A stretch of 64,000 nt of DNA from Winogradskyella aurantiaca (GTDB lineage: Bacteria > Bacteroidota > Bacteroidia > Flavobacteriales > Flavobacteriaceae). Shown in pieces: positions 17,350 to 55,800 of the stretch (position 1 is the stretch's first letter; each line of letters begins with the position of its first letter). The translations under genes and the position numbers were made by a program. Below the pieces are notes generated by a model, which worked only from the letters and a program-made list of their open reading frames with translations, had not been told where the DNA came from and did no database searches. The stretch spans positions 1 to 64,000 of the forward strand of contig NZ_QKTV01000006.1 of the NCBI RefSeq assembly GCF_003362725.1, written 5' to 3'.

Positions 17350-19464
17350 TTAAAAATCGAAATACCAGTTAAAGAGATCTGTTCTCAATCCCATTGTAAA
17401 CCAAACGGTGCTGCTCTTCATAGCTGTCGCCGTTTCGGCTGTTGGATCAAAATTTCTGTAACTAAGGTTGGCAAATAGTCTTAAATTACTAACAGGGTTT
17501 ATAACATATCCCCCTTGTAGTTCCCCGTGAAAAACACTGGTACTATTTCCTTGGCCTATTTTTACACCTGAATCAAAAGGACGGTCATTTTCGTTGCGGT
17601 AAATATTACCCCCATAATTAAAGCTATCGTCTTCCGAATTAAAGTCCAAACCACGCGTTCCAAAGACTAGTTTAGCATCACCAAACCAACGCTTGTAATT
17701 ATAGCGTCCAATGAGAATGAACTCTCTAAAATTACCTCCCCATAAATGCGCCATGGCTTGGTTAGCATGTGCATAATTTAAAACAATTGTATTGTGTGAA
17801 TAGGTATAGGGCCTAACCTGATTGTATTCAGCTTGAAGTAATAAATTTTCAACCCCAAAGGCATCATAGTATTTGGCACCTAATTGGAAGCCAAACTTGT
17901 TTTTCCAACTGCCATTCCCCCCAAATACGTCACTAGTAGAAAATTCATCAATGAGCAATTGAGTGTATAAATTGAGGCGATCGTTCCATTTGTATTTTCC
18001 TGATAGTCCCAAAAGTGCATTCCCAGCCCCCTGACCGGTATTAAACTCAATAGCTCTAAAAAATATGAAAGGATGCATGTAATTAAAATCAAAACCACGA
18101 CCGTTGGAATTATCCCAAATAACCGATTCGAATAAACCAATATTCAATTTCTTGGATACATTCCAACTCAGGTAGTGATTTGCCATATATTTTGGCAAAT
18201 AGGCCTTGTCCTCAATCACCTCGTCCCTAACGTCTCTTAAGCCCATCCAGGTACTTGTAAATTTAATCTTCCAAAACTTAAAATTAGTTTTGAAAAAGGG
18301 ATAGGGACTGGCAAAATCACTTTGGAATAAAGATCGATAACCATCCCCAATAAAGTTTTTTCCATAGCCTAGTTGTAGATTGACCCACTTGGCTGGAGTA
18401 AAGGAAATATTTGCTTCTGCCACAGGGTAATCGTATGAATCTGTTTTAAAGCGTTTGGCAATTCCTCGGCCTGGGATAATGGCTGGATCAGGACCCGAAG
18501 CACGAATGCTTTCGGCGTACTGATTGTAATAATTTGCAAATCTACCCTGGCTCTCAAAAACAGTCGCTGAGATACTAAATTTACGACCTAGACCAGCTTG
18601 AATTAAAATCCCTCGCGTGTTATTATAGGTATAGTCAAATTGGGCTTCGGTGTCATGACCAATTTGAAGGTCAAATACAGGGTCCAGTACAAAATAATAA
18701 TCTTTACCCTGAACCTCTACTAAATGTTCGTTCCAAAGTTTGCGACCCCACCAACTTGTTTTGTCTTTGGCCAGGGCTTCCTTTTCAGCCTTAAAATCGT
18801 AATAAGGGTTAACTTCTTCATAAACAAAAGGTTTGGCAGCAGTATGACTGTTAGATCCCGGAATATTCATAGCCCTGTCAAAACGAGCATAATAATTATG
18901 AGTAAAAGGAATATTTAAGGGGCTGTTATATTCTAACTTCTGATATTTTCTTGTCTGTGCGTTGATACTATCAATTTCATTTGAAAAGCGCTCCATGTCC
19001 TTTTTTTCTTCAGCTTTTTTATTTGCTTCAAGTTGAAGTTGCTGATCTGGACTTATTAATGGGATTCTTATCTTGATGGTATATTGAGCAAAGGTTGGAT
19101 TTCCATTGTAGGTTGCAGGCTCAATAGCAGGCGCCTCTTCAAACACCCTAACTGTCTCCTGTTTGAGTTCGTCGTAGATAGCATCTACAAATACAGTTTT
19201 AAATCGGCCTTCTCTATCGACCTCAAAGAGCACTTCTACCGTTCCATTATACGACTCGTTGGAAACTACTTCTGGAACTTTAAAATTCTTAAATAGATAG
19301 TCATTAAGTTCATACCTAAAGCAATGAATTAAACTGTCAATTGGTGTGTCTTTACAATTTGGAAAAACAGGCGGCTTCTCATAGGTTTTACTTGTGCGCT
19401 CTTGAGCGGTAGATAAAATCCCGAGCAATCCGAATAAACATAGGAGAACTATTCGTAACAACAT
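17350..19464 (-). CDS. TonB-C-terminal-like domain fused to an outer-membrane barrel (RemB-like gliding protein?)
   Basis: 704 residues. Signal peptide about 1-21. Residues about 30-140 resemble the C-terminal domain of the two TonB-like neighbours: PPVFPNCKD...CFRYELNDYLFKNFKVPE...VEVLFEVDREGRFKTVFV. A linker with KAEEKKDMERF follows, then a long beta-strand-rich region from about 240 to the last residue Phe (WYFDF), as expected of an outer-membrane barrel. LGLRDVRD/GYGKNFIGDGYRSLF resemble the capsule-assembly Wzi/RemB type. In flavobacteria RemB is a gliding-associated protein; I am not certain of this identity. A TonB-like domain on a secreted barrel would face the periplasm. Confidence 0.65.
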   Translation of the reverse strand: MLLRIVLLCLFGLLGILSTAQERTSKTYEKPPVFPNCKDTPIDSLIHCFRYELNDYLFKNFKVPEVVSNESYNGTVEVLFEVDREGRFKTVFVDAIYDELKQETVRVFEEAPAIEPATYNGNPTFAQYTIKIRIPLISPDQQLQLEANKKAEEKKDMERFSNEIDSINAQTRKYQKLEYNSPLNIPFTHNYYARFDRAMNIPGSNSHTAAKPFVYEEVNPYYDFKAEKEALAKDKTSWWGRKLWNEHLVEVQGKDYYFVLDPVFDLQIGHDTEAQFDYTYNNTRGILIQAGLGRKFSISATVFESQGRFANYYNQYAESIRASGPDPAIIPGRGIAKRFKTDSYDYPVAEANISFTPAKWVNLQLGYGKNFIGDGYRSLFQSDFASPYPFFKTNFKFWKIKFTSTWMGLRDVRDEVIEDKAYLPKYMANHYLSWNVSKKLNIGLFESVIWDNSNGRGFDFNYMHPFIFFRAIEFNTGQGAGNALLGLSGKYKWNDRLNLYTQLLIDEFSTSDVFGGNGSWKNKFGFQLGAKYYDAFGVENLLLQAEYNQVRPYTYSHNTIVLNYAHANQAMAHLWGGNFREFILIGRYNYKRWFGDAKLVFGTRGLDFNSEDDSFNYGGNIYRNENDRPFDSGVKIGQGNSTSVFHGELQGGYVINPVSNLRLFANLSYRNFDPTAETATAMKSSTVWFTMGLRTDLFNWYFDF

Positions 19465-19515
19465 TTGGGCATTTGGTCTGCGAAAGATACTATTTTTTCT
19501 GCCCCAAAAAAGAAA

Positions 19516-19537
19516 AAACCACCATTGCTGGTGGTTT
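19516..19537 (-). terminator. rho-independent terminator after the second tonB-like gene
   Basis: Minus-strand RNA: AAACCACC / GGUGGUUU perfect 8-bp stem with 6-nt loop, followed by UUUCUUUUUU. It begins 12 nt after the stop at 19550, and separates this gene from the barrel-fusion gene. Confidence 0.85.
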
Positions 19538-19549
19538 AACTTAGTATAT

Positions 19550-20329
19550 TTAATCTCTTACCTGAAAGATAATTGGCAAGGTATAAATAACCCGTACAGG
19601 GGTGTTACCTTGATATCCAGGTTCCATTTTCGGGATCTTATTAATAACACGTTGCGCTTCCGTTTCAAGCTCTGGATGCGGAGCTCTTGCTTTAATACCG
19701 TCAATTTCACCATTAGTTCCAATTGTAAATTCCACCCAAATACGTTGCTTTCCAATTAGGCCATTCTCTCCAGCGATATTTGTATTAAACTTCCGTCTTA
19801 CAATTTTCCCAATTTTATTGGACATACATTTAGTCAGGTCTTCTCGTTTACTGAATTTCTCACACCCTGGAAAAACTGGTACCTTTTGAACTGAGTTGAT
19901 ATTGACAGGCTCGTCTTCTACTTCAACAACCTTAATATCCTCGATGGATAATGCTGGTTCTTCAACACTTGGTTCATCCGATACTACCGATTCCAGAATT
20001 GGGTCATCAGCTTCTATAAATTGAATGGTATCAAAGGTATGAGTAGGGATTGGTTTCCCTACTTCAGGTCGGTTCTTCTTAATGATCTGTGGTTTAACTT
20101 CAGTCAACGCTACTTCTATTAAACCATCCTGAGGATTGAGAACTGGTGGTGAAATCACCTTGTTAGAAAACTGCATTTCTAGCAGTGCATAGGTACCTAG
20201 CAAACATAGGATGAGGCCTATTTGAAAGTAGATGCTTGCGTTTTTTTGTAAATTTACATCTTGCTTTTTGGTAGTCTCAGACACCTTTATACTCTGACCA
20301 GTACGCCGGTGTTGTTTTGATTTTTTCAT
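19550..20329 (-). CDS. TonB-like energy transducer (no polyproline)
   Basis: 259 residues: basic N-terminus, one membrane helix at about 32-52, a periplasmic linker of about 95 residues rich in Glu, Val and Pro but without a polyproline run, and a TonB C-terminal domain at about 150-258 (VPVFPGCEKFS, QRIWVEFTIGTNGEIDGI, RAPHPELETEAQRV). TonB proteins couple the proton motive force of ExbBD to outer-membrane transporters. Paralogue of the gene at 20443, about half identical over the C-terminal domain by eye. Own transcription unit, bounded by terminators on both sides. Confidence 0.87.
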   Translation of the reverse strand: MKKSKQHRRTGQSIKVSETTKKQDVNLQKNASIYFQIGLILCLLGTYALLEMQFSNKVISPPVLNPQDGLIEVALTEVKPQIIKKNRPEVGKPIPTHTFDTIQFIEADDPILESVVSDEPSVEEPALSIEDIKVVEVEDEPVNINSVQKVPVFPGCEKFSKREDLTKCMSNKIGKIVRRKFNTNIAGENGLIGKQRIWVEFTIGTNGEIDGIKARAPHPELETEAQRVINKIPKMEPGYQGNTPVRVIYTLPIIFQVRD

Positions 20330-20385
20330 AATACTAAAATTAAAGAGTTAGTATTGCGAAGTCACAAGAAACGTACCAAAAAGAA

Positions 20386-20417
20386 AAACCCCGTTCAATT
20401 AAATTTGAACGGGGTTT
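20386..20417 (-). terminator. strong rho-independent terminator after the first tonB-like gene
   Basis: Minus-strand RNA: a perfect 13-bp stem AAACCCCGUUCAA / UUGAACGGGGUUU with a 6-nt loop, followed by UUCUUUUUGG. It lies 25 nt after the stop at 20443. Confidence 0.9.
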
Positions 20418-20442
20418 GTTATATTTTTAAGTAATAAAAATA

Positions 20443-21168
20443 CTAATCCTGAACTTGAAACAAAATTGGTAAACTGTAGGGTACTGTTACAGCCTTACCT
20501 CTTTGTCTACCGGGCTCCATTTTTGGTAATAAGCCAATAACGCGTTTTGCTTCTTTTTCTAATCCTGGGTGGGGAGCTCTAGCACCAACACTAGTGATAT
20601 TTCCATTTTTATCAATTTTAAAGAATACACTGATTCTTTGACGACCACTAAGCCCTAGATCACCTGCTAAATCAGTATTAAACTTTCTATTCACAAACTT
20701 GGATATCTTCTCAGACATACATTTTTTCTTGGCATCATTAGTCTTTTTCTTTTCGCAGCCAGGAAAAACTGGAACATTCTCAATTACCGCAAAAGGAACC
20801 TCAACATCTTCTTCAACTTCTTCTACCTCTACATCTTCAACTTCAACAATTTCAGTATCCATTTCAGTTTCTGTAGATTCGATAACTGTTTCTTCAACCT
20901 CTTCCTCATCCTCAACAACTTCAATAACTTCAGGTGCTGGTGGAGGTGGTGGAGGTGGTGGTGGAGGTGTTACCAACTGTTCTGTGATTGGAATTTCCTC
21001 ATCCAACTCATCGTCTAAATTCAATTGACCAATATCAATATCGCTCTTGTCATAGGACTTGTAGTTAATAGACTGATAGGTTACAAATAACATCAGTGCT
21101 AAACCTACAGCAAAATAGATGGAACTATTTCTACTTACGTCCGATTTTGGATTTTTCTTAGGTTCCAT
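20443..21168 (-). CDS. TonB-like energy transducer with polyproline linker
   Basis: 241 residues. One membrane helix at about 16-34, ten consecutive prolines at 68-77, then a strongly acidic Val/Glu repeat region (about 80-127), and a TonB C-terminal domain (about 130-240) with VPVFPGCEKKK, a second Cys at CMSEKISKFVNRKFN, ISVFFKIDKNGNI and RAPHPGLEKEAKRV. The polyproline plus acidic linker is the usual periplasm-spanning arm. No exbB/exbD is in the window. It lies downstream of vanZ with a 59-nt gap and ends in a strong terminator. Confidence 0.9.
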   Translation of the reverse strand: MEPKKNPKSDVSRNSSIYFAVGLALMLFVTYQSINYKSYDKSDIDIGQLNLDDELDEEIPITEQLVTPPPPPPPPPPAPEVIEVVEDEEEVEETVIESTETEMDTEIVEVEDVEVEEVEEDVEVPFAVIENVPVFPGCEKKKTNDAKKKCMSEKISKFVNRKFNTDLAGDLGLSGRQRISVFFKIDKNGNITSVGARAPHPGLEKEAKRVIGLLPKMEPGRQRGKAVTVPYSLPILFQVQD

Positions 21169-21227: not shown

Positions 21228-21596
21228 TTAATTTAATTTAACTTTCTTCTTAGACAAGAAACGCACAATAACTATACCAAATAAAACTCCGCAACAATTT
21301 GCTGCTAAATCTAGTGCATCAAACGTACGTGATGAATTGATTAAATGCTGTATAGCTTCTAAAAATACCCCATATAATAAGCAAACTATAAACACCGACT
21401 TCAAGGCAATGATTGGATATTTAAGTCGGGACCAAGCCCCCCACAGAAAAGAGAAAACCATGTAGGCGCCTACATGGTAAATCTTATCTTCAAAGCCCAA
21501 ACCCACTTGGGGAATCGACTCTAAGTTTATAAAATTAATAACTGTAATAAATACAGAATAGCCAATTGCGGCAATCAGCAATAGCGTTCTAAGCAC
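21228..21596 (-). CDS. VanZ-family membrane protein
   Basis: 122 residues, four membrane helices, with the VanZ pattern: [21 protein letters not shown] near the second helix and [21 protein letters not shown] before the last. Function of non-resistance VanZ proteins is unsettled. Its ATG overlaps the gcvH stop by 8 nt. Ends in a basic KKKVKLN tail. Confidence 0.85.
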
Positions 21597-21969
21597 CGAC
21601 TAAGGCCTTGTAATCATCAGCACTCATTAAACCATCAACTTCTGAAGCATCAGATAATTTAATTTTTATCATCCAACCAGCACCGTAAGGATCAGAATTT
21701 ACCACTTCTGGTTCATCTTCCAAAGACTCGTTAAATTCCACAATTTCACCACTTAATGGTAAAAATAAATCCGACACTGTTTTTACAGCTTCCACGGTAC
21801 CAAATACTTCTTCAGCATCAAGAGTTTCATCTAAGGTTTCAACTTCAACATAGACTATATCTCCTAATTCTCCTTGTGCAAAGTCTGTAATCCCTACTGT
21901 GGCTACATCGCCCTCAATTCTTACCCATTCATGGTCTTTAGTGTACTTAAGTTCGGCTGGTATATTCAT
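21589..21969 (-). CDS. gcvH: glycine cleavage system H protein
   Basis: 126 residues, typical length. The lipoylated lysine is K63 in [43 protein letters not shown] is the family start and [11 protein letters not shown] the C-terminal signature. The H protein shuttles the aminomethyl group between P, T and L proteins. gcvP, gcvT and lpd are not in this window. It follows sprA, as in other flavobacteria, but has its own promoter-like sequence in the 60-nt gap. Confidence 0.95.
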
Positions 21970-22029: not shown

Positions 22030-25000
22030 TTAATTCCCAAAAATATAGCGCATGGTAACCCCAGCTCTTAAATTTGCCTGAGGGAACGATGTAGAAATGG
22101 CGAAGTCTGAAAATGTATAATCGAAGTAAAAGATTCCTGTCAGATTCTTACTAAAGGCATAATCTGCTGTGTAATTAACAGACCAGATCGTCTGACCCGC
22201 CGTTATTTGACTATTAAGCACATCCAGGTACCTAATAATTGTTGCATTCTCTCGAACTGCTATATCCATCCTCATATTTAAATCACTACGTATGACCTGT
22301 CTGGAACCAGCCAGTGAGGATCGTATTCTTACATCTTTAACACGGTATCCCAACCCAACAATATACTCTCTCCCTTGAGTTTCGGTCACCAAATTGTTAT
22401 CAAGACTAAGCGATAATAATCGATCGCGTTGCATTTCTAATAAGACCTTTAAAGAGTTTTTCATTTCAAATTCCACGCGAATTAATGGGCTAAACTGCTC
22501 CTCCAGATTAATATTGGTATATAGTGTGGGATTCCTGAAATTACCTTGTTGATCTACCTCATCAGGTTGTTCGGGACTATACTCCAAGTTTGTTCTAAAT
22601 TGGTTAATAGTATAACTTGAACGGTATCCATGCTGAAGCGAGAATCTTCTAAAGTTACTTCTAAACCATGGAATTCGCATAAGGCCAGTGTATTTAACTA
22701 TCCAATTAGGAATTGCAAAACTCTTAATTGCCGAGGTCCCAACATTCTCTGGATTGGCGCCAGTGTAAGCTGAATAAAAGGCCGGGATGAGAACACTCTG
22801 GTTGGTCTTTCCAAATCCTACAGGGAATCCTTCTTCATCTCTTGGAAAGTTGTCGTTGCCATAAAAATCGCGTGCCAGACGATCTGCAATGACCAACCTA
22901 TTATCACTGAAATTATCAAACGCTGTAGATTCTGTTGCATTACTTTTACTAAATGAGGTGGCAATTATTGCAGATGAAATGGCAAAGTTTCCAACAGTAT
23001 TTGGATTAAGCGAATTGTATATTCTACTTCCGTCTATGTTTTGATCTACTCTAAAATTCTCGGAGTTACTCTCTGAATAAATACGATTTCCAACCACATC
23101 GATCTTAAAATCCTGAAATGGTTCAAGATTGGCCGAATAATCAAAGGTTTTATTCCTAACAGTAGTATACTGCTGATTGAATTGATCGTATTCTGTTAAC
23201 CAACCATTTCCTGCAGCCTTTTGTCTTATATCGTCCTGTAATCCGAATGTAAATCCTAAACTAGGTTTGGTGGTTCCTAACCATCCTGGTGTCCGCACAA
23301 AACCGGGTAGAAAAGTTCCATTATTCTCTCTGTAGGTAAACTGTCCTCTTTTGACCATGGTCACTAAATCAATCAGAGTATTACCGGCCTTTCTTCCTAT
23401 GCTGGAACCTCCGCTGCTTTGTGATTGGTTCTGTCCTGGTTGACTACGGTTTCCGGCACTCCTATTGTTGGTCTTTTTAACCAGACCTATACTTCGGTAT
23501 AGCTGATCGAAATTAAAGGTGGTGTTTAAAGCATGTAGATTGGAGTTTTGAATTGTGTTCCCTAAGTTAAATTCTCTTATGTTTCCATTTAAATCTTCAC
23601 CAATAAAACTGAGATTGATGTCCGAGCCTTTGGTCCATTGAAACGTTCCTGTATATGCATAATTAGCATTAATAAACTCCAAATATGGTATCTTATTTAT
23701 GGGTAGTGTCCAATTCAATTGAAATTGTTGATTTTGAATATTCGGGTCACCAGGATTAAAGAAGCCATCCCATACGTCCAAACTGGGATCTTGACGTCCG
23801 TTTATTATGTTTCCGTCAATAAAATAGTTTCGAACAATATTGTTGTTAGTGGCGGTAAAATTAAAATTGAGGTTATCACTTAAATTATAATTAATCACAT
23901 ACTGAAAATCAAAAGTGTAATTTCTCCTAAATAATTCTTCCACCTGAATATTATCTGCTCCTAATTCAACCTCCCTAAACTTTTGCCTAGTAAACTGCCT
24001 TCTAATTTCAGAGTTTACAGAAAAACTTGTTGGCAAAGGATTGAAATTTATATCCTTCAGAATTTTCCAGTACCTACTCTTAAAAAGGGAATCATTTTTC
24101 TGGAAAGGTTCTAATCTTATTGGTTCGAAACCAAAATTATAATTGGCTCCCGCCCTGATATTTTCATTCAATGAACTTTCCAGTTCAAAATTGCGCTGCT
24201 CGATAGTATTGTGAGAATAGTTGAGTGTGAAATTTTCGACATCATAGAACTGAGCCTGTTTTGCGCTGGTCCTATTCTTTCTAACCCCTATAAAATTGAT
24301 ACTTTTTCGTTTCGTATAATCTTCATTCACCCGAAGTATGGAATCCCTGTTGGCGTTTGGATTATCTAATTGGGTTTGAAGCTCAATATCGCGATAATAG
24401 CGATCAAATTTAGGTGTAATTCGTTCTTCGCCAACGCCAAAATTAAAAGGAACCTGAACCCCCCATTCCTTTGGTAATAACTGACCAAGATTCCAATTAG
24501 TGACTAGATCGTATTGCTCTATATCTTCACGACTCCGTTCGTTTGGAGTTTGTTCAATACCACCAAATCCTGCAGTACTCTTACTTCCTGTGGCCGAAAT
24601 GTTAGCAAAGTCAGCCAAGTTAGTGTCAAGGCTCATAACTGCGGCATAACCACCTTCGTTATCCAATCCGGACATTCGCAATTCGTTGTACCAAATTTCG
24701 CCGCAAGCATTTCCTGCCGGTGAACGTGTATTTTTAATACCCAGCATCAATACTCTTATATCACCGAAATTTGGATTTCCTTTTACAGCGACCCGTTGTT
24801 GTCCAATCGTATAAGGTGAATACTCAGGTACAGCGTCTGGGACCAGTTCTCCATCAATAACATCATAAAAGGTGGGGTCATCATTGGTCAAAGACTGATC
24901 AAATATGCCTATTGATTTGATTTGCTGTAAGACTTCTAGCGGCAGGTTGATTTCATTTTGAAATGGCCATACCTGTTCTTCAATAGGTAAACTCGGGTCT

Positions 25001-28000
25001 ATCAAATCGGATTGATAGGTTACTAATGGGACCTCAATTTGATAGAAGTTATCGGTAAAGTCATTACCCATTCTAATAAACCCAATTAACTGTCCGTCCT
25101 CTAGGTTTTCACCATCCTGTGGTCGTGCGTGCATAAACATTCGCATACGTTTGTATTGTCGCATGTCTAAGTTTATGTTTTTAAATACCCCTCTGGAGTC
25201 TGTTGGAATTAAATCGCAGACCTTCACCACTAATGCTTGCTCGTTTTGACGAATGATGGTGTTATTATTATTGAGCTGTTCACGAACTACGCCTGGAGGA
25301 CTAACATAGCTGCCATCATTTTGTTGAACTCCAACAATTCCAACACTAAATTCAGCATTTGGACTATTGTTGCCGTCGTCATTATCTAAATCTAACGTAT
25401 AGCGCCGCCAATCACTCCTAACTAAATCAAACGTAGCAAATCGAAGGACCGTATTTTCCTGAAAACCGGTCATAAACATCCGAATAAAACGGATGGATCG
25501 TCTGTCTTGAATACCTCCAATAGCTCGTGTTGCTTCAGCAATAGGCAGCCTAAATTGATACCAGGTAAATTCTTCCGTTTCACCATTTGGAAGGGTCACA
25601 CTGTTGGTTTTTATATCGTTAATCTGAGGGTTATTAATATTCAAATCTGAAGGATTGATATCAATCTCATACTCAAAATAACTGTCGATGGTATTCATTG
25701 TGTTATCCCTGTTGATGTCTTCCACATCAGGTTGCGTAGTAGAACCTCTGTTAGTGTCAGTAAAAGAATCAGGGGTATTTCCATCAAGTCCGTTATACTG
25801 CTTATAGCGCTCCAGAATACCTCCCGTAGCATTCAAGAAGTAATTGTAGTTGTCATTTGAAGGGTCTATTAAGTTTGCAAAATTTGGAAAAGCACTTGCT
25901 TCTTCTGCATCGTCATAGCCGTCATATCCAACATCTTGATTGGTACGCTCCTGTCCCGTAGTTCCAAAGGTATAAACCAGTGATTGATTTTGAGGTACTA
26001 CAGTTCCATAGTCAGTAGGGTTAAACAAGGACACATCCCCGTCTTCGGGTAATCCGTTCTCATAGATCTTTTTACCATCTTTTAAAACATCTTCTGAAAT
26101 GTTTCCAAGATTAATAAATAACTTCCCCCCCTGAGAGCCAGGATTGTTAATAAAAGGATCCTGTACCCAAAACTCAATGAATTCCACATTAGCTTGTTCA
26201 AAGTCAGTTGACGTAATCTGTCTTGTTATTCCCGCATAACTATTAGACGGATTTAACGGATTCTCATTGGCTGCATTTGGATCAAAATTATAAGGTCCAC
26301 GCTCTGTAGGATAATAAGCCATGTCCAAAGTAAAGATGACAGAAGTATTACCCTGAGCAATATCGACCTGTGGAAAAATCTCATTAATAAACACACGTCT
26401 TGTTTCGGGTAATGAAATATCATCGTCTGATAATCCTGAAGGTCGCTGAGCACTATAAAAAACAGGATCTATGGTATACCAGTTTAAAAGGGCTCTACCA
26501 TAACCACTTTGCACACCATTTTGGTAGTTACCTGTAATATTGGTAATACCACTTTCTTCAAAATTTGGTCTACTGGAATGGAACCATGGCAGTGGTGACA
26601 AAAGGTCAAAGGTTCCTTGTGTTCCCTCAAAATCATCTATGTAGGCCGTTGCCTCATTATTAAATGAAGTCCCTTTTGGGGCTCCTGGGGATAAAGAGGC
26701 AATTTCACCACGCACCGATAAATTTGATGGCACGTCAGTATCTACATTTGGTAACTTATTAACTAATCTGGTAAAGAAAGGTACCTCAGTTGCGTAATTT
26801 CCATAAAGACCAAAAATGGAATTATTAATAGGCTCACTGTCAAAATTAGCCTTTTGGGTAATGGGACGTTCATTAAGGTTAAGAAACGTACCTCCAAGAA
26901 GAAAATCTTGATTAAACTGGTGTTCGACATTGATCCCAGTAAATCGCCGCGTTTGCTGACCAAAAATGGCATTATTTTCTACTGATACTTCGATGGGGGT
27001 ATTGGACGCTTTAAGTGCTTCATCCAGAATCTGTACACGCCCCAACTGATAGTTAACTGTATAGTCAATACCCTCAACAAGAACACGACCTCCTGCCGTT
27101 ACTCTAACAGATCCTCTAGGCACATTAAATGCCCCAATAGGAATTCCATCTCCACCACCGCTACTCTTAAATCGTCCTTTTATTTGAAATTTATTTTTTT
27201 GAGCTTCCTCTAGGGCAGCAATTTTTGTTGATTTATAGAGGATGTCATAAACATACTTCTGCTGATTTGGATTATATGTTGTTACATCATCATAATCACC
27301 CGGATTGTCTGGATCCTGTAACGTATTAAACAGATATTCCCCAAAAGGTTCAGCCTTAGTGAAAATGATCTTCCCATTTTCTACAATAATGGTAGTTCTG
27401 GGTACAAAATCAAAGAATCCATCACCACCCGATTGTGGATCACCATTAAAATTCAGCTTATCTAAATGGAAAAGGCGTATTAAAGGTGTCTCATTGATTT
27501 CGGTATCGTCAGTTGGGTCAAATGGTGTATTATTATCAAAAATCGGGAACATAGAACCATCAACTGGTGTTATATAGTTGACGGGTGAAGCCTCTGTGTA
27601 AAAAATATTTAGTCTAAAGTCTTCCTGATCCAAATTAAATGCTCCTGTGTCGTAGATGTTTTTCATCATTAGATCCCACACTGGTTGGTCAACCACGGTA
27701 ACGGCACTTTTCAGCATCTTGAGCACTAAACTATTATTAGCTACCTCTGGGTTTTGTGTTCCATCGCCTTCATCAATTCCTGAAGCATCAATTCCATCGT
27801 TAGCAAATTCACCAACTTGAAAGACTTCCCCATTTCTTGTATACTGAAATGCCACGGCAAGTACTTCATCATTCAATAAGCGCTGGTTTAACGAAATATA
27901 TCCTAACTCAGAATTAAGGATGTAATCAGAACCCTGGTTTAACTTTCGAGCTGTCTCTATTTTACCATAATCAAACCCCTCATTAACTGGAACTAATATC

Positions 28001-29238
28001 CCGGCTTCCACGTTGGTAATGTCTCTAACATCTTTAGTCAACAAGTTCCCCGGTTCACCAATGGCCTGTGGATTAAATTTATTATTTCCATTGTCGGGAT
28101 AACTGCCTTGGGGTACATTAACAAAATCTGGAGGAGGATTGGGTAGTCCAATTACATCAGATTCTCCAATATCCTGGAGGGCCACAATATTACGTACATT
28201 CTGAGTTTGATTATTACGGTTGGTTACCCAAACCTCAACTCTGGTTATTTGAATTCCATCATTTTGTGGGTACGGATAGGTCAATAAGGCCTTATCATAA
28301 TTTTCGCGAAAAAACTGAGCTAAGAAAAAGTGTCGGTTCTCATCATAATCTCGCCCAAAAAATTCAAATTCTTCAAGAGTACCACCACCTTGGGCTACCA
28401 CTTGCCTGGATTGCGATTGTTGCTCTGAGAATACGGCAGTGACAGTAGTTTTACCAAATTGTAACTTTGTTTTTACCCCAAATAATGCCTGTGCCCCCGT
28501 AATAAGTGTACTATTTAATGGCATATTTACATTACCAACCTCAATCTTTTGTACAATGTCGTCTTCAGTTGGTGTGTATTCTAACTTAATAAGATTCTGA
28601 AAATCGAAGGTGGACTGGGTATCATAATTCGCAGTAATTTGTAGTCGCGTCCCGATTTTACCTAAAAGACTAACGCTAATTCTTTGATCAAAGTCAAATG
28701 TGAAATTTCTCCGGTTACGAGGTGAAAAGTTGGGATTGTCTTGTCTAGAATATAATACACCTAGATCCACTTCCACAGAACCTTGCGGTACAATACTTAT
28801 CACATCACTACCAAAAATGGTTTCAAAGAAGCCTGAATTAACATAAAAATCAGGTAGTAAATTTTTCTGAGCTTCTTCAGACCCCTCCTTTTGTCCAGCC
28901 TGAGCATCAATCTTCTGTTGATAATAATCACGCATGCTTTCTTGAAGTACTAGCCTTTCAAATTCAGCAGGTGTAAGTATGAGCGGATAATTGATATTGA
29001 AATTACCTATCTGTTCCGTATAAATGTAGCGATCCAAAATAGGATCATAAGTGTATTTCTTAACTATACTGTTAGGGTTTGCAAACTTAACTGGACCCAA
29101 CGAAAACCCAGTTTTAGTAGTATCTTGAGCTGCATTATTTTCTTGCTGCGCATTACCGGCTAATGCCAACAAGAACAACGCAATAAATAAAAACCGTACC
29201 TTAAAGTTATAAGAATTTGTAGTGTTGGTTGTGCTCAA
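22030..29238 (-). CDS. sprA: SprA, outer-membrane translocon of the type IX secretion system
   Basis: 2402 residues, the size expected of SprA. N-terminal hydrophobic export signal ending LALAGNAQQ near residue 31. Family features by eye: QKIDAQAGQKEG region, DQRISVSLLGKIGTRLQITANYDTQ (about 185-210), several AYIDDFEGTQ-type and Asn/Asp-rich repeats, many alternating beta strands and a C-terminal strand ending MRYIFGN. SprA forms a very large single-chain barrel through which proteins with T9SS signals leave the cell; it is also needed for gliding. It starts 4 nt after the ruvA stop and precedes gcvH, a gene order known from Flavobacterium. The secreted protein at 1-2181 is a likely client. 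Confidence 0.95.
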   Translation of the reverse strand: MSTTNTTNSYNFKVRFLFIALFLLALAGNAQQENNAAQDTTKTGFSLGPVKFANPNSIVKKYTYDPILDRYIYTEQIGNFNINYPLILTPAEFERLVLQESMRDYYQQKIDAQAGQKEGSEEAQKNLLPDFYVNSGFFETIFGSDVISIVPQGSVEVDLGVLYSRQDNPNFSPRNRRNFTFDFDQRISVSLLGKIGTRLQITANYDTQSTFDFQNLIKLEYTPTEDDIVQKIEVGNVNMPLNSTLITGAQALFGVKTKLQFGKTTVTAVFSEQQSQSRQVVAQGGGTLEEFEFFGRDYDENRHFFLAQFFRENYDKALLTYPYPQNDGIQITRVEVWVTNRNNQTQNVRNIVALQDIGESDVIGLPNPPPDFVNVPQGSYPDNGNNKFNPQAIGEPGNLLTKDVRDITNVEAGILVPVNEGFDYGKIETARKLNQGSDYILNSELGYISLNQRLLNDEVLAVAFQYTRNGEVFQVGEFANDGIDASGIDEGDGTQNPEVANNSLVLKMLKSAVTVVDQPVWDLMMKNIYDTGAFNLDQEDFRLNIFYTEASPVNYITPVDGSMFPIFDNNTPFDPTDDTEINETPLIRLFHLDKLNFNGDPQSGGDGFFDFVPRTTIIVENGKIIFTKAEPFGEYLFNTLQDPDNPGDYDDVTTYNPNQQKYVYDILYKSTKIAALEEAQKNKFQIKGRFKSSGGGDGIPIGAFNVPRGSVRVTAGGRVLVEGIDYTVNYQLGRVQILDEALKASNTPIEVSVENNAIFGQQTRRFTGINVEHQFNQDFLLGGTFLNLNERPITQKANFDSEPINNSIFGLYGNYATEVPFFTRLVNKLPNVDTDVPSNLSVRGEIASLSPGAPKGTSFNNEATAYIDDFEGTQGTFDLLSPLPWFHSSRPNFEESGITNITGNYQNGVQSGYGRALLNWYTIDPVFYSAQRPSGLSDDDISLPETRRVFINEIFPQVDIAQGNTSVIFTLDMAYYPTERGPYNFDPNAANENPLNPSNSYAGITRQITSTDFEQANVEFIEFWVQDPFINNPGSQGGKLFINLGNISEDVLKDGKKIYENGLPEDGDVSLFNPTDYGTVVPQNQSLVYTFGTTGQERTNQDVGYDGYDDAEEASAFPNFANLIDPSNDNYNYFLNATGGILERYKQYNGLDGNTPDSFTDTNRGSTTQPDVEDINRDNTMNTIDSYFEYEIDINPSDLNINNPQINDIKTNSVTLPNGETEEFTWYQFRLPIAEATRAIGGIQDRRSIRFIRMFMTGFQENTVLRFATFDLVRSDWRRYTLDLDNDDGNNSPNAEFSVGIVGVQQNDGSYVSPPGVVREQLNNNNTIIRQNEQALVVKVCDLIPTDSRGVFKNINLDMRQYKRMRMFMHARPQDGENLEDGQLIGFIRMGNDFTDNFYQIEVPLVTYQSDLIDPSLPIEEQVWPFQNEINLPLEVLQQIKSIGIFDQSLTNDDPTFYDVIDGELVPDAVPEYSPYTIGQQRVAVKGNPNFGDIRVLMLGIKNTRSPAGNACGEIWYNELRMSGLDNEGGYAAVMSLDTNLADFANISATGSKSTAGFGGIEQTPNERSREDIEQYDLVTNWNLGQLLPKEWGVQVPFNFGVGEERITPKFDRYYRDIELQTQLDNPNANRDSILRVNEDYTKRKSINFIGVRKNRTSAKQAQFYDVENFTLNYSHNTIEQRNFELESSLNENIRAGANYNFGFEPIRLEPFQKNDSLFKSRYWKILKDINFNPLPTSFSVNSEIRRQFTRQKFREVELGADNIQVEELFRRNYTFDFQYVINYNLSDNLNFNFTATNNNIVRNYFIDGNIINGRQDPSLDVWDGFFNPGDPNIQNQQFQLNWTLPINKIPYLEFINANYAYTGTFQWTKGSDINLSFIGEDLNGNIREFNLGNTIQNSNLHALNTTFNFDQLYRSIGLVKKTNNRSAGNRSQPGQNQSQSSGGSSIGRKAGNTLIDLVTMVKRGQFTYRENNGTFLPGFVRTPGWLGTTKPSLGFTFGLQDDIRQKAAGNGWLTEYDQFNQQYTTVRNKTFDYSANLEPFQDFKIDVVGNRIYSESNSENFRVDQNIDGSRIYNSLNPNTVGNFAISSAIIATSFSKSNATESTAFDNFSDNRLVIADRLARDFYGNDNFPRDEEGFPVGFGKTNQSVLIPAFYSAYTGANPENVGTSAIKSFAIPNWIVKYTGLMRIPWFRSNFRRFSLQHGYRSSYTINQFRTNLEYSPEQPDEVDQQGNFRNPTLYTNINLEEQFSPLIRVEFEMKNSLKVLLEMQRDRLLSLSLDNNLVTETQGREYIVGLGYRVKDVRIRSSLAGSRQVIRSDLNMRMDIAVRENATIIRYLDVLNSQITAGQTIWSVNYTADYAFSKNLTGIFYFDYTFSDFAISTSFPQANLRAGVTMRYIFGN

Positions 29239-42685: not shown

Positions 42686-45600
42686 TTATGCTTTTGTTGT
42701 ATTTCTAACTTTCGTATGATAGAACACATTTGGTTTTGTACCAACATGCTCCAATAAATGATACATGCGATCATCCTTAGAAAGTTTCGCTACCTCACTT
42801 GATTCATCATTAACATCACCAAATACCATGGCTCCGCTACCACAAGCGGCAGAACATGCCGTTTGGAACTCCCCATCTTTAATCTCACGTCCGTCACGCT
42901 TAGCATCAAGTATTGTTTTCTGAGTCTTCTGGATACAGAACGAACACTTCTCCATCACCCCTCTTGAACGAACTGTAACATCTGGATTGATAACCATACG
43001 ACCAAGATCGTTGTTCATAAAGAAATCAAACTCATCGTTATTGTTGTATAAGAACCAATTGAAACGTCTTACTTTATATGGACAGTTGTTAGCACAGTAT
43101 CTAGTACCTACACAACGGTTATAGGCCATGTGGTTTTGTCCCTGACGACCATGAGCAGTTGCCGCAACTGGACAAACTGTTTCACACGGAGCGTGATTAC
43201 AATGCTGACACATTACTGGTTGGAAGGCTACCTGAGGATTATCAGCAGGGCTTTCCATTTCTCCAAACTCACTCAGTGAACTGCCTAAACCAGAAATGTT
43301 GTCCTTCTTAGCGTTATCACCCTCAAAGGAATCCTGAGAAGAATAATATCTATCAATACGTAACCAGTGCATATCTCGACTGCGACGCATCTCTGTCTTA
43401 CCAACTACCGGTACATTATTCTCAGCATGACATGCAATAACACATGCTCCACAACCTGTACAGGCATTTAAGTCAATTGATAAATTAAAATGATGTCCAA
43501 TAGAACGGTCAAAAGAATCCCACAGATCCACATCTGGAGATGTTACTGGGGTTTCAATATGATCTTTGGAAACCTTTGGTATTGGATTCCAGTAATTTTT
43601 ATTCTTAGTGTTAAATACCTCAAGCGTGGTTTCTCTAATGATATCACCACGACCCATTAAGGTATTGTGTAACTGTACACAAGCAAATTCGTGTGTTCCT
43701 GAAGTTTTCTCAATACTTACTTCTTGAACCGCACTAAAGTTTTGATACAACGGATAGGCATTTACTCCAGTCTGCAATTCGGATTGAACACCATCGGTAC
43801 GTCCATATCCTAAGGCTAAACCTACGGTCCCTTTAGCTTGACCTGGCTGTATAATCACAGGCACATTCACTGTTACACCATTTACCGTAACGTTAGCATA
43901 ACTACCGTTAAGTCCACCGTTAGCAACATTTTCGTTTACCAAACCAGCAGCTTCAGCATCTGCCTTAGATACGGTTAAGTAGTTATCCCATGAAGTTCTG
44001 GTAATTGGATCAGGAAATTCCTGTAACCAAGGATTGTTAGCCTGTTGGCCATCACCCATACCTGTTTTGGTATAAAGCACCAACTCCATTGTTGCACCCT
44101 TAGCAGATTGCGATAGTGCTCTTGCAGCATCACCTGCTGGAGTTTCAACAGCATCCTCTTCTAAAGTATCCTCAATATCATCTAAAACATCAACAGCGTC
44201 ATAAGCCACCTTATAAACACCATCGTGTAGAGCCTGACTGAAAGATCCACCGTTTAATATATCCTGATTCCAGATCATTTTAATGTACTCATCGTAAGAC
44301 TGCGGATTAGCAGTCCAAGTCATTAATAATTCCTGGAATTGTTTCGTATCAAATAAAGGTCTAATTGTTGGCTGAGTTAAGCTGTAGTGACCTTTCTTCA
44401 TTTCAACATCACCCCATGATTCTAAATAATGTGGTGCCGCAGCAATATATGTGCAAAGTTTTGCGGTCTCGTCTACTTTCATTGTAGAAGCAATTGACAT
44501 TTCTACCTTTTCTAAGCCAGCCTTAAAATCCTCAGCATTAGGTAAGGAATAGATTGGATTCACACCCGCCATAATTACAGCTGCTATCTTACCAGCTTTC
44601 ATATCCGCAACCAAAGTAGCAACCTCAGTATCATTTCCACGTCTGGTCTTAATAGTCATCTTAGTGTCAAACGCTTTACTTCCTAAGTATTCGTTCAATT
44701 CTAATACAACGGTCTGTGCATTGACGTCCTGAATTCCAGTAACAACAACACCTTTGTTTCCAGCTCGCTTTAATTCTGAAGCAGCTGAACGTACCGCCTG
44801 GTCAATAGCCTCAGGTAAGGTCCCTGATACATTTGACCCGGTTACATAGCTAAACAGTTTGGCAAGGGCCAAACGTTGCTCGCTTGCTTTCATTGGCACA
44901 CGAACATCTGCATTAGCACCGGTTAGAGACATATTGGACTCAAACTGGATGTGCTTAGACATTTTACCATGATCAGGCACACGCTTCTTAGCATATCCTG
45001 AATCAAAACCTCCACCTTGCCAATCGCCTAAGAAATCAGCACCAACAGAAACGATGGTCATAGCTTTTTCAAAGTCATAGTTAGCAAGAGCACGTTCTCC
45101 GTACTTAGCTTGGAAGGCATCTAGAGCAGCAGATTCAGATACAGCATCATAACGTACGTGGCGTACATTGGTATATTGCTCTCTAAAGTCAGCAATTAGG
45201 TTTCGAGTAGATGGGCTTGCGTAGGATTGTGTTAAAATAGCAATCTCTTTCCCCTCTGCTTTTAACTCGTCGAATTTCTTTGTGGTTTCTGAAACAAACT
45301 GAGACCATCCTATTGGCTGATCGCCTTTCATAGGAGCCTTCACACGTTTGTTATCATATAAATCTAAAACCGAAGCATGAACACGGGCATTGGCCATCCC
45401 GTTTGTTTCAGCCAGGTTATTGTTTTCAATTTTAATAGGTCTACCTTCTCTGGTTTTGACCAAAACACTTGCAAAGTCATGACCATTAGCAATAGTGGTG
45501 GCGTAATAATTGGCCACACCAGGAATAATCTCGGTTGGTTGCACCACGTAAGGAATGGACTTTACAACCGGTCCTTCACAAGCTGCTAAAGAAGCTGCCG

Positions 45601-45790
45601 CTGTACTAAAACCAACATACTTTAAGAAATCGCGTCGTGTAGTGGACGAAGATTCAAGTGTTTCTTTATCACCTAAGAATGTGTCAGTTGGTATTTCTTC
45701 AACAAATTCGTTTTGCTGAAGTGTCTCAACAATAGAACTGTTGTCGTTCAGTTCTTCAACACTTTTCCAGTATTTCTTGTTTGATGACAT
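42686..45790 (-). CDS. actB: alternative complex III subunit ActB, TAT-variant molybdopterin-oxidoreductase-like Fe-S protein
   Basis: 1034 residues. Extended N-terminus, then RR52-53 in TRRDFLKYVGFSTAAASLAAC with lipobox-like Cys71 (LAAC), the TAT-variant signal of this family. Residues about 80-720 form a molybdopterin-oxidoreductase-like domain without visible cofactor ligands. The last 300 residues carry four cysteine clusters: CTGCGACVIACH, CQHCNHAPCETVCP, CVGTRYCANNCP, and CSFCIQ...CSAAC. They would hold one 3Fe-4S and three 4Fe-4S clusters that carry electrons from the quinol site to ActA. Starts 42 nt after actA. Confidence 0.95.
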   Translation of the reverse strand: MSSNKKYWKSVEELNDNSSIVETLQQNEFVEEIPTDTFLGDKETLESSSTTRRDFLKYVGFSTAAASLAACEGPVVKSIPYVVQPTEIIPGVANYYATTIANGHDFASVLVKTREGRPIKIENNNLAETNGMANARVHASVLDLYDNKRVKAPMKGDQPIGWSQFVSETTKKFDELKAEGKEIAILTQSYASPSTRNLIADFREQYTNVRHVRYDAVSESAALDAFQAKYGERALANYDFEKAMTIVSVGADFLGDWQGGGFDSGYAKKRVPDHGKMSKHIQFESNMSLTGANADVRVPMKASEQRLALAKLFSYVTGSNVSGTLPEAIDQAVRSAASELKRAGNKGVVVTGIQDVNAQTVVLELNEYLGSKAFDTKMTIKTRRGNDTEVATLVADMKAGKIAAVIMAGVNPIYSLPNAEDFKAGLEKVEMSIASTMKVDETAKLCTYIAAAPHYLESWGDVEMKKGHYSLTQPTIRPLFDTKQFQELLMTWTANPQSYDEYIKMIWNQDILNGGSFSQALHDGVYKVAYDAVDVLDDIEDTLEEDAVETPAGDAARALSQSAKGATMELVLYTKTGMGDGQQANNPWLQEFPDPITRTSWDNYLTVSKADAEAAGLVNENVANGGLNGSYANVTVNGVTVNVPVIIQPGQAKGTVGLALGYGRTDGVQSELQTGVNAYPLYQNFSAVQEVSIEKTSGTHEFACVQLHNTLMGRGDIIRETTLEVFNTKNKNYWNPIPKVSKDHIETPVTSPDVDLWDSFDRSIGHHFNLSIDLNACTGCGACVIACHAENNVPVVGKTEMRRSRDMHWLRIDRYYSSQDSFEGDNAKKDNISGLGSSLSEFGEMESPADNPQVAFQPVMCQHCNHAPCETVCPVAATAHGRQGQNHMAYNRCVGTRYCANNCPYKVRRFNWFLYNNNDEFDFFMNNDLGRMVINPDVTVRSRGVMEKCSFCIQKTQKTILDAKRDGREIKDGEFQTACSAACGSGAMVFGDVNDESSEVAKLSKDDRMYHLLEHVGTKPNVFYHTKVRNTTKA

Positions 45791-45832
45791 ATGATTAAAA
45801 TTACTTGCTTTATTAATTTTGATTACCTCTTT

Positions 45833-47143
45833 CTAGTAGTGGCACTTACCACATTCCAGACCACCCATCATGGCAACCGTTAATTTTTCTACGTTATATT
45901 TTTTGGAAAGTTCTTCGTGAATTTTGGTATAATACCCATTATCCTTCACCTTAACTTCCGTTTCTCTGTGACAGTTGATACACCATCCCATCGTTAATGG
46001 AGAATGCTGACTCATGATTTCCATTTCTTCTACAGGACCATGACAAGTCTGACACTCGATGCCTCCAACCTCAACGTGTTGTGAGTGATTGAAATAAGCA
46101 AAGTCAGGAAGATTGTGAATTCTCACCCATTTCACCGGCTGTGTTTCGCCTGTGTAAGCCTGCTCATTCTGATCCCATCCTACAGCGGCATACAATTTCT
46201 GAATCTCCGCATTGTAATCCTGACCATATTCTAAGCCTTCAGCTTGCGTTTCTGGCGCTACTTCAGCAATAGATTTGTGACAGTTCATACATATATTTAA
46301 TGATGGTATTCCAGAGTGCTTACTAACTCTGGCAGATGAGTGACAATATTTACAATCGATTTCATTGTCCCCAGCGTGAATTCTGTGTGAGTAATGGATT
46401 GGTTGAACTGGTGCATAACCTTGATCTAAACCAACCTGCATTAAGTAGCCATACACAAAATAACCACTAGCTAATAACAATACTATAGAAGTCACTAATA
46501 CCAGGAACTGATTTTGAATAAAGGCTTTCCAAATTGGAATACGCTTCTCAGATTCTTCAACCTCAATACCTTTTGCTTCAGCAAAATGGTTTAAAGTACG
46601 CTTCACTAGAACTAAGGCCATAGCTAAAAGTGCGAATAACAAGGCTAGTGCACCAAGTATAATTTCATTACTAATCCCTGGCTCTGACCCCGCAGTAGTA
46701 GCAGTGGTAGCAGCAGTCTCAACCGGCGCTGGTGGTGGAGCAGCCGTGTAAGCTAAAATATCGGTAATATCCTGATCACTTAACGTAGGGAATGCCGTCA
46801 TGGCGGTTTGGTTGTACTCATTCCAAATCTTGTTGGCATAAGCATCACCAGATTTAATCAATGCAGCACTGTTTCTAATCCAGGCATTTAACCATTCTCT
46901 GTCCAAGCCTTCCTCATCATACAAACGCGCCTCAACATTACGTAAAGCAGGTCCCGTCATTTTCTGATCAAGCCTGTGACAAGCAGCACAATTGGTGTTG
47001 TAAAGCTGTTTCCCTTTAGCAGGATCACCAGCCTGGCCTTCCGCGGCTTCCTGAGCTTGAATTGATACCGAAAACATTAAAATGAAAACAAAACCGATAC
47101 GAAGTAAAGACTCGGTTAAATTGCGGCTGAAAACCTTTTTCAT
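45833..47143 (-). CDS. actA: alternative complex III subunit ActA, multiheme cytochrome c (six CxxCH)
   Basis: 436 residues. Signal peptide about 8-30. Heme motifs at C52-x2-C55-H56, then C264, C285, C364, C388 and C431, the last ending CGKCHY at the very C-terminus. The first lies in a separate N-terminal mono-heme cytochrome c domain (about 38-135); then an Ala/Thr/Pro linker and two membrane helices (162-181, 212-236) precede a pentaheme domain. The pentaheme ActA is known for this complex; the additional domain adds a sixth site. First gene of the act-cta operon. Confidence 0.95.
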   Translation of the reverse strand: MKKVFSRNLTESLLRIGFVFILMFSVSIQAQEAAEGQAGDPAKGKQLYNTNCAACHRLDQKMTGPALRNVEARLYDEEGLDREWLNAWIRNSAALIKSGDAYANKIWNEYNQTAMTAFPTLSDQDITDILAYTAAPPPAPVETAATTATTAGSEPGISNEIILGALALLFALLAMALVLVKRTLNHFAEAKGIEVEESEKRIPIWKAFIQNQFLVLVTSIVLLLASGYFVYGYLMQVGLDQGYAPVQPIHYSHRIHAGDNEIDCKYCHSSARVSKHSGIPSLNICMNCHKSIAEVAPETQAEGLEYGQDYNAEIQKLYAAVGWDQNEQAYTGETQPVKWVRIHNLPDFAYFNHSQHVEVGGIECQTCHGPVEEMEIMSQHSPLTMGWCINCHRETEVKVKDNGYYTKIHEELSKKYNVEKLTVAMMGGLECGKCHY

Positions 47144-52784: not shown

Positions 52785-52888
52785 AAAATTAATCTTAAAA
52801 TCACACCTTTTGCTTAAGGTTTCTTTAAAAGACTCTAGGGGTGTGGTAATTATTGCTAAATTCGCCTCGTTCTAAATCAATAATTTAT

Positions 52889-55800
52889 ATGGCCAATTTT
52901 AGCTTCGTAAAATGGAATAGAATTTTAAGTTGGGGATGTTTTGCTATTGCCCTTATCACCTATGCACTAACCATTGAACCAACCGTTAGTTATTGGGATG
53001 CGGGTGAGTATATATTAACTTCCTCGAAGTTACAAGTAGGCCACCCTCCAGGGGCGCCACTATTTCAAATGCTTGGGGCGTTTTTCTCAATTTTTGCTAC
53101 TGAAGCATCCCAAATTGGGGCCTTGTTGAACATGATGAGTGCCGTATCCAGTGCATTCACCATACTATTTATGTTCTGGACTATTAGTATGCTGCTTCGC
53201 AAACTCACCAACTATGAAGAAGGTGATGCTAATAAAGGCATGGCTATAATAGGTAGTGCTGTTGTTGGTAGTTTAGCCTTCACCTTTACAGATTCATTCT
53301 GGTTTAGTGCAGTTGAAACGGAAGTTTATGCCATGGCCGCCCTTATTATGTCTGCCATGTTTTACCTGGCCTTGTGCTGGGAACGTGATATGCACACCCC
53401 GCGAGGTAACCGCTGGCTCATATTAATTGCTTTTATTATTGGTTTATCCTTTGGAGTGCACTTCATGGGATTACTTACCATTCCAGCTATTGGATTGATT
53501 TATTTCTTTAAAAACTATGAGAAGGTAACAGTTAAGAACTTCCTTGTCGCCAATATAGCGTCAGCTGCTATTCTGCTTTTTATATTCAAATTACTCTTAC
53601 CAAGTACGCTTAAGTTCTTTGGGTGGATGGAAGTCTTTATAGTCAACAGTATTGGATTACCTTTCCATTCTGGAACCATCATTGCAGGACTTCTGGTTAT
53701 AATAGCTTTTTATTTGGCTTTAAACTATACTAGAAAGAAGGGGCTTGTTCATCTAAATACTTTGACGCTTTGCCTAATGTTTATTTTCATTGGTTTTTCT
53801 TCATGGATGATGTTGCCTATTAGAGCCAATGCCAACGTTATAATTAATGAGAACGATCCATCAGACGCACGAGAATTATTGGCGTATTACAATCTAGAGC
53901 AATACCCAAAGACTTACTTATTTTATGGACCACAGTTTACCGAAATTTATTCAGGTGCGGATGAAAAACAGCCCTTTGTAGACGCTAAAAAGAACTATGA
54001 GAAGGACTATAAGACAGGAAAATATGTGGTTATTAATGATTGGAAAAATGCGGAGCAAAATTACAATCATGAACATGCGTCTCTTTTGCCAAGAATGTGG
54101 AGTTCAGAACATGCTCAAAACTACATGATGTTTACTGGTCTTATTCAGTTTAAAATCAAACCAGAATACGCTGGAGACCAACAGATTGTTGCTATCGTTA
54201 ATGATTTTAGAATGCGGGTAGCGCAAGGCCAAGTTGATTATGAAGGATATGATGAATTCTTAAGAACCTATGGGCAACAATTACTTGATATTGAAAAACC
54301 GTCCTTTATTGATAACATGATCTACATGATCCAATATCAGTTTGGTTACATGTACTGGCGTTACTTTATGTGGAATTTTGTTGGACGCCAAAACGATATA
54401 CAAGGACGATATGATGATTTTAATGGTAACTGGATTTCAGGAATTAAATGGATTGATACCATTCATTTAGGCATGTCTCAAGATAATCTTCCTGGAGATG
54501 TTCTAAATAATAAGGCTCGTAATACCTATTACTTTTTACCTCTGATTCTTGGATTACTCGGATTCTTTTTCCTTTTTCACACAGATAAAAAACGCTTCTG
54601 GGTCTTATTGGTATTCTTTGCCATGACCGGAATTGCTATTCAGTTTTATACGAATATCAGGCCTTTTGAACCGCGTGAACGCGATTATTCTGTAGTAGGA
54701 TCTTTTTATGTATTTGCTATATTTATTGGTTTTGGGGTGTATTCCTTATACCAAGCCCTTTCTGAACGTTTTAAGACTAAATTGTTGGCGCCGGTTGTAG
54801 CACTAGTCTGCTTACTAGCTGTGCCTGGTATCTTAGCAGCCAACAACTGGGACGATCACGATAGATCCGGTAAATACACGGCCAATGCCATGGCTAGAAA
54901 ATATTTAGAATCCTGCGCACCAAATGCCATATTATTCACTATTGGTGATAACGACTCATTCCCACTTTGGTATCTGCAGGAAATTGAAGGTGTAAGAACA
55001 GATGTACGTGTGGTAAATACGAGTCTGTTCCAAACCGATTGGTACATCGATCAAATGAAACGTAAAGCTTATGAAAGTGACCCAATTCCATCACAATTGA
55101 CACATGAGCAATACCGTTTTGGTACGCGTGACTTTATAATCAAACGAGAAATTACTAAAGATACCATTCCTATCAATGATTTTATGGATTTTATATCCAG
55201 TGATAAACCAAGTACCAAATTGCGTTTTGTTGCGGAACGTCAAGGTGAAGACGTTAGACAATATCCAAATACCTTATTAAATACAAACTACTTCCCGACA
55301 TCGCATGTGCGCATCCCTGTCAACAAAGACGCTGTGCTTGAAAATGGCGTAGTCAAACCGGAAGATGCTGATAAAATAGAACCCTATCTAGACATAAAAA
55401 TCTCAAGTTCTTATATCTATAAAAATCGTCTTCTCATGTTGGATATTATAGCCAATAATAATTGGGAACGCCCCATCTATTTCTCAGGTGGAGCTTTTGG
55501 GGATGAAGACTACATTTGGATGAAAGACTATCTGCAACTGGATGGACTTTGTTACAAACTTGTTCCAATTAAGACACCTGTTAATAGGGCAAATCCATTT
55601 GACATGGGTAGAGTTGATCCTGATCTTATGTATAATATGGTTAAATCCTGGGATTGGGGCGGTAGCGGAGAAGACATCTATCACGATGTTGAAACCAGGA
55701 AAAATGGTATCACCTATCGTGGAAACTTAGCGCGCCTTATTGAAGCACTTATTCAAAAGGATGAACTGGACAAGGCTGAAGAAATTGCCGATTTAGCTAT

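Follow-up and report, generated by a model that had tools for sequence, protein, structure and literature searches.

The outer-membrane capsule lectin Wzi of Escherichia coli is a barrel of 18 strands and lacks any TonB-like domain, while TonB itself, with its inner-membrane anchor and proline spacer, bears the C-terminal domain described by Pfam PF03544 (TonB_C; e.g. 6I97_D). In Flavobacterium johnsoniae, the locus tags of sprA and remB are Fjoh_1653 and Fjoh_1657 (PMC4572689, in a table, and PMC4891872), and the tables of these two papers give remB as adhesin-like, with secretion of RemA and RemB by the Por secretion system, or type IX secretion system (PorSS/T9SS). The present analysis concerns the minus-strand gene at 17350-19464 of a 64,000-nucleotide stretch of Winogradskyella aurantiaca (contig NZ_QKTV01000006.1; C22:1-64000 in genome contig numbering), which I hereafter call the window. 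By its position beside sprA, which it shares with the F. johnsoniae gene, and by its similarity to genes of F. johnsoniae congeners, whose version of the fusion is 56-58% identical, this gene is the RemB orthologue. As a gliding gene, RemB figures in those tables under no other label than adhesin-like; the protein of the window, by contrast, is predicted to join a TonB-fold domain to a Wzi-like barrel. Barrel type and domain are each already known; no description of a TonB-barrel architecture of RemB was found in the Creative Commons-licensed papers of PubMed Central, a set that does not cover subscription papers. The parts of the protein are the following.

17350..19464, minus strand: gene placed as the RemB orthologue; 704 residues comprising signal peptide, TonB-like domain, helical linker and predicted 18-strand Wzi-like outer-membrane barrel (Pfam, model, structure searches, synteny)
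19405..19464, minus strand: signal peptide, residues 1-20, read by eye, with likely cleavage between STA and Q
19057..19377, minus strand: TonB C-terminal-type domain, residues ~30-136 (Pfam, RemB-domain profile, fold model, structure searches)
19354..19356, minus strand: Cys37, invariant in the 39-row alignment; may form a disulphide with Cys48
19321..19323, minus strand: Cys48, invariant in the same alignment
18955..19050, minus strand: long linker helix, residues 139-170, poorly conserved (model and alignment)
18733..18936, minus strand: helical pre-barrel segment, residues 177-244, conserved; the alignment with Wzi begins at model residue 181
17380..18699, minus strand: predicted 18-strand beta-barrel, residues 256-695 (model and structure searches)

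This order of parts had been put forward in an earlier note, made from the sequence alone, which described three consecutive genes sharing a PVFPxC...C block, the third with a signal peptide and a TonB-like domain ahead of a barrel, and which allowed that the domain might prove to have another fold or the barrel prediction might fail. The open reading frames (ORFs), all on the minus strand, and the block were recovered in all three genes, and the signal peptide (by eye), domain and barrel of the third were borne out by Pfam, by the model and by structure searches. The two neighbouring TonBs match Pfam TonB_C over its cut-off, at 2.7e-7 and 2e-8; RemB matches it at 1.1e-4; its 23.1 bits in hmmscan fall short of the cut-off of 24.6, and the 27.6 bits that it scores in a six-frame search of the genome pass it. 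Matches to the same family at E<=1 were obtained for 28 of the 39 aligned RemB family members, the best at 3.2e-8. Conversely, a profile made from RemB domains only retrieves the neighbouring TonBs at 5.5e-16 and 4.6e-13, so that the block common to the three proteins is not a product of chance; a fortuitous PVFPxC motif is likewise ruled out by the list of TonBs that Foldseek returns. When residues 26-172 were modelled alone, the predicted local distance difference test (pLDDT) score was 89. Against the PDB, Foldseek places TonB C-terminal domains at all of ranks 1-15 (best E 1.6e-3, probability 1.00), and VIA-align superposes 86 residues at 2.1 Å on the TonB bound to FoxA (Z 9.1), with TolA and TonB domains in the next rows. 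The N-terminal domain of RemB thus has, in its predicted structure, the fold of the TonB C-terminal domain.

The second half of the proposal, the barrel, was borne out too. The full-length model contains 18 strands between residues 256 and 695, and Wzi (2YNK) ranks first in both structure searches, at 7.1e-8 in Foldseek and in VIA with a Z of 20.2 over 366 residues, starting at model residue 181, the next row being at 17.3; the absence of a given family from a VIA list does not exclude that family. Barrel kind and helical N-terminal segment are common to the two proteins, but RemB is only 13% identical to Wzi and has no direct Pfam match to its family. Ten barrel-only homologues were examined with Pfam, and in three of them PF14052, the Wzi family, is over its cut-off. 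The last residue is F or Y in 66 of the 82 ORFs counted, one of the 82 being a spurious TonB ORF. The barrel of RemB is, on the evidence of the model, an 18-strand barrel of Wzi-like type. Looking among RemB and Wzi-type proteins, as the earlier note had advised, was in both respects a good lead.

Two alignments were used: A1 holds 38 of 80 loci plus the window (39 rows; the final residue is cut off in those 38 rows), and A2 holds 38 of the 39 rows of A1, locus L039 having been dropped. Mean column identity is 77% in the barrel, 65% in the TonB-like domain and 36% in the linker (residues 137-172). Reading of the sequence and the model revealed no inner-membrane anchor and no periplasm-spanning or proline region, the domain following the signal peptide directly; nor was a TonB-box/plug architecture recognised. 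RemB differs from TonB in the missing anchor and proline spacer, and in that its domain precedes an outer-membrane barrel. The full-length protein gave no match in a sequence search of solved structures.

In the genomes covered, the fusion is a property of one family. When 395 genomes were drawn from across the phylum, the full-length matches among those listed all fell in Flavobacteriaceae; listed matches from other families begin no earlier than about column 171, and most of them lie in ORFs of some 500-680 residues. Twenty out-of-family homologues were fetched and every one is barrel-only, with a signal-peptide-like start by eye. Across Flavobacteriaceae, the full-length fusion is present in 114 of the 199 genomes sampled, a hand tally of full-length matches only; four more genomes (G456, G513, G407 and G506) have it split over contigs, G566 has a C-terminal piece only, and G438 has a full match together with a second fragment. 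The sole barrel-only relative seen inside the family, in G515 (contig C12, locus L143), branches on a long branch just outside the fusion clade, as sister to all fusions, and would represent either the state before the fusion or an early loss. In a barrel tree of 66 rows, from which a spurious row of an earlier tree (L050_10, a TonB ORF) had been removed, all 45 fusions form one clade (support 99/84) to the exclusion of the 21 barrel-only proteins, which argues for a single gain. A tree of the TonB-like domains places the RemB domains on one branch (21/21, support 96); it was restricted to domains that extend to profile position 98 and have E<=1e-5, from loci hand-picked for spread, and its support values are from the Shimodaira-Hasegawa-like approximate likelihood-ratio test (SH-aLRT) only. 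The simplest account of these sequences is that the domain was gained once, at or near the base of Flavobacteriaceae. Recent copying from the adjoining tonB genes was considered as a source and rejected, since the RemB domains branch by themselves, away from the TonB clade, and identity to the two neighbouring TonBs is 23-25%. On fold, barrel, single gain and conservation, the architecture of RemB is well supported.

The genes next to remB, all upstream of it, are the following.

19550-20329, minus strand: second TonB, 259 residues; N-terminal membrane helix by eye, no proline run, TonB_C at residues 197-256
20443-21168, minus strand: first TonB, 241 residues; N-terminal membrane helix by eye, proline run, TonB_C at residues 179-238
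20938..20967, minus strand: polyproline run of the first TonB, residues 68-77
21228..21596, minus strand: VanZ-like protein, conserved neighbour (Pfam, synteny)
21589..21969, minus strand: gcvH, conserved neighbour (Pfam, synteny)
22030..29238, minus strand: sprA (T9SS translocon), conserved neighbour (NCBIfam, synteny)

The first two genes had been called inner-membrane TonBs, one with and one without polyproline, and their hydrophobic helices (by eye) and TonB_C matches agree with that; the proline run is confined to the gene at 20443. The call of sprA upstream was equally correct (NCBIfam TIGR04189, 2691.8 bits), and of the 72 loci whose upstream flank is complete, 71 have sprA upstream of the fusion gene, the exception being L046. 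The claim that exbBD is not nearby holds for its ExbD part: ExbD matches fall either on contigs other than this one or at C22:96114-97160, and none lies in the window, ExbB being outside the search. The same genome holds three tonB genes in a six-frame search, two of which adjoin remB. The second TonB is 34-51% identical to its relatives, against mostly 60-86% for the first, yet most relatives with both genes retain it.

Adjacency of the fusion to tonB genes, which the earlier note had pointed out, is a fact of the window but not a trait of the fusion. In 14 Flavobacterium-type loci (L066 and L068-L080) the fusion is kept beside sprA and no neighbouring tonB was detected (BLASTP at 1e-5; ORFs by eye in five). 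The gene order in Flavobacterium is sprA-gcvH-vanZ-one gene-remB, and in the five of the 14 loci that were inspected that one gene, deoC by eye, occupies the place of the tonB genes. An operon-bound TonB-RemB unit was therefore rejected. The conserved neighbours of the window were not found near any of the 20 barrel-only genes.

A polysaccharide gene (sugar transferase, GDP-mannose dehydratase or glycosyltransferase) directly adjoins six of the 20 barrel-only genes, among them five of the seven nearest to the fusion clade, these seven being drawn from the first barrel tree, the one that holds L050_10; Pfam was run on nine neighbouring proteins from seven of the 20 loci, the others being named by eye. 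These neighbours agree with the Wzi fold, and a role of the RemB barrel in surface polysaccharide may be envisaged.

The TonB_C domain, for its part, is not confined to TonB. In the phylum it is also carried by M56-type peptidases, anti-sigma-like proteins, VIT/VWA proteins and small lipoprotein-like proteins (names by eye), at or towards the C-terminus, whereas in RemB it is N-terminal, ahead of the barrel. Such reuse away from energy carriers suggests that TonB_C serves as a general periplasmic binding domain. Some individual cases were noted in passing. Outside the window, locus L085 (G000 C10:588827-589009) encodes an M56/BlaR1-type peptidase (by eye) whose two-Cys TonB_C tail groups with the first TonB of the window in the domain tree, and proteins resembling it elsewhere in Flavobacteriaceae have two TonB_C tails. 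At the end of L085 and in L137, L138, L139 and L140, a small lipoprotein-like protein carries a degenerate TonB-like domain (PxFxxC...C) that stands apart on a long branch of the domain tree; in the latter four loci it lies near a RuvC-like gene (by eye).

The preferred reading of these elements is the following. RemB would use the Sec pathway for export and settle in the outer membrane, where its 18-strand Wzi-like barrel would handle or anchor polysaccharide of the cell surface. Early in Flavobacteriaceae it gained, on a single occasion, a TonB-fold domain, which a helical arm carries at the N-terminal end, presumably on the periplasmic side. This domain would be a docking module that holds, by beta-strand addition, a short peptide belonging to a partner in the periplasm or the outer membrane, as TonB does with the TonB box, and that thereby couples the polysaccharide-binding barrel with a second machine of the envelope; parts of the gliding/T9SS apparatus would be the first candidates because sprA is a neighbour. 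Docking by strand addition, and the identity of such a partner, are put forward tentatively, as something that may quite possibly be true. The earlier note had suggested that the barrel could accept energy; in such a reading TonB or ExbBD would act through the domain to open or move it. A TonB-like domain does sit on an outer-membrane barrel, but RemB has neither the anchor nor the periplasm-spanning proline region of an energy carrier, so that delivery of force is unlikely; as there is also no recognised TonB-box/plug architecture, and most out-of-family barrel homologues lack the domain, energy acceptance is very improbable. Given the missing anchor and spanning region together with the reuse of TonB_C off energy carriers, a docking role is favoured, and the domain of RemB is more likely a docking clamp than an energy carrier. 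Several observations nevertheless weigh against the docking hypothesis and the architecture it presupposes. Confidence is uneven over the barrel of the full model (mean pLDDT 72.9, loops below 50), and RemB has no match to PF14052 at E<=1, which is why it is named Wzi-like here and not placed in that family. The best Foldseek E-value of the domain is only 1.6e-3, and the fold call therefore relies on the consistency of the match list. In addition, conservation is lower in the domain than in the barrel (65% versus 77% mean column identity), the count of six polysaccharide neighbours in 20 comes without a background control, and in Flavobacteriaceae remB lies outside polysaccharide clusters.

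Other functions can be assigned to the same architecture. The domain might bind peptidoglycan or just hold the barrel, with no tie to TonB-box peptides; the helical linker suits a tether and the TonB_C tails of the peptidases and the other proteins listed above fit such a use, but Pfam finds no peptidoglycan-binding family in RemB, and I consider a cell-wall or periplasmic anchor somewhat unlikely. Alternatively, RemB could mimic TonB or compete with it, the latter being a possibility raised in the earlier note: its domain, tethered at the outer membrane, would bind TonB boxes on transporters of the TonB-dependent or SusC kind, and would either keep TonB off or mark the transporters for clustering with the barrel. 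The best structural match of the domain is a receptor-bound TonB, the domain and the TonBs of the cell fall in one two-Cys subgroup, and of the three tonB genes two adjoin remB. On the other hand, the 14 Flavobacterium-type loci have retained the fusion although adjoining tonB genes went undetected there, and the separate branch of the RemB domains implies that their binding sites may have diverged, which leaves this competition with TonB doubtful. The broader version is to be regarded as unlikely to the same degree; in it, TonB-box-like peptides, whether of transporters or of gliding/T9SS parts, would be bound by the domain in trans, so that the polysaccharide-binding barrel is mechanically connected with energised machines of the envelope or takes them over. 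RemB would then be a receiver or decoy TonB, a type of which I know no example. Finally, RemB could be a mobile adhesin secreted via T9SS, as the adhesin-like label and the RemA/RemB secretion given in the tables of PMC4572689 and PMC4891872 would have it. The predicted 18-strand barrel and the terminal F or Y of most of the ORFs counted (66/82, the spurious one included) speak against a secreted protein. So does the outcome with NCBIfam, in which no model at all matches RemB at E<=1, and hence no T9SS sorting-domain model, a class that the library presumably includes; RemB as T9SS cargo was rejected on that account. A mobile adhesin is thus hardly credible, and the adhesin-cargo label of RemB is probably wrong.

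Two further regions of the window, away from remB, are recorded here. At 42686-47143, in a cytochrome oxidase region, two adjoining genes resemble subunits of menaquinone reductase type, with matches to the QrcC/QrcB and QrcA models that stay below the cut-offs, and at 52853-56206, on the plus strand, an ORF of 1117 residues has no NCBIfam match at 1e-10.

RemB has so far stood in lists of gliding genes as "adhesin-like", without a mechanism. The docking hypothesis apart, its architecture makes a role in gliding and in slime attachment testable, and RemB shows a TonB domain on the outer-membrane side of the envelope.

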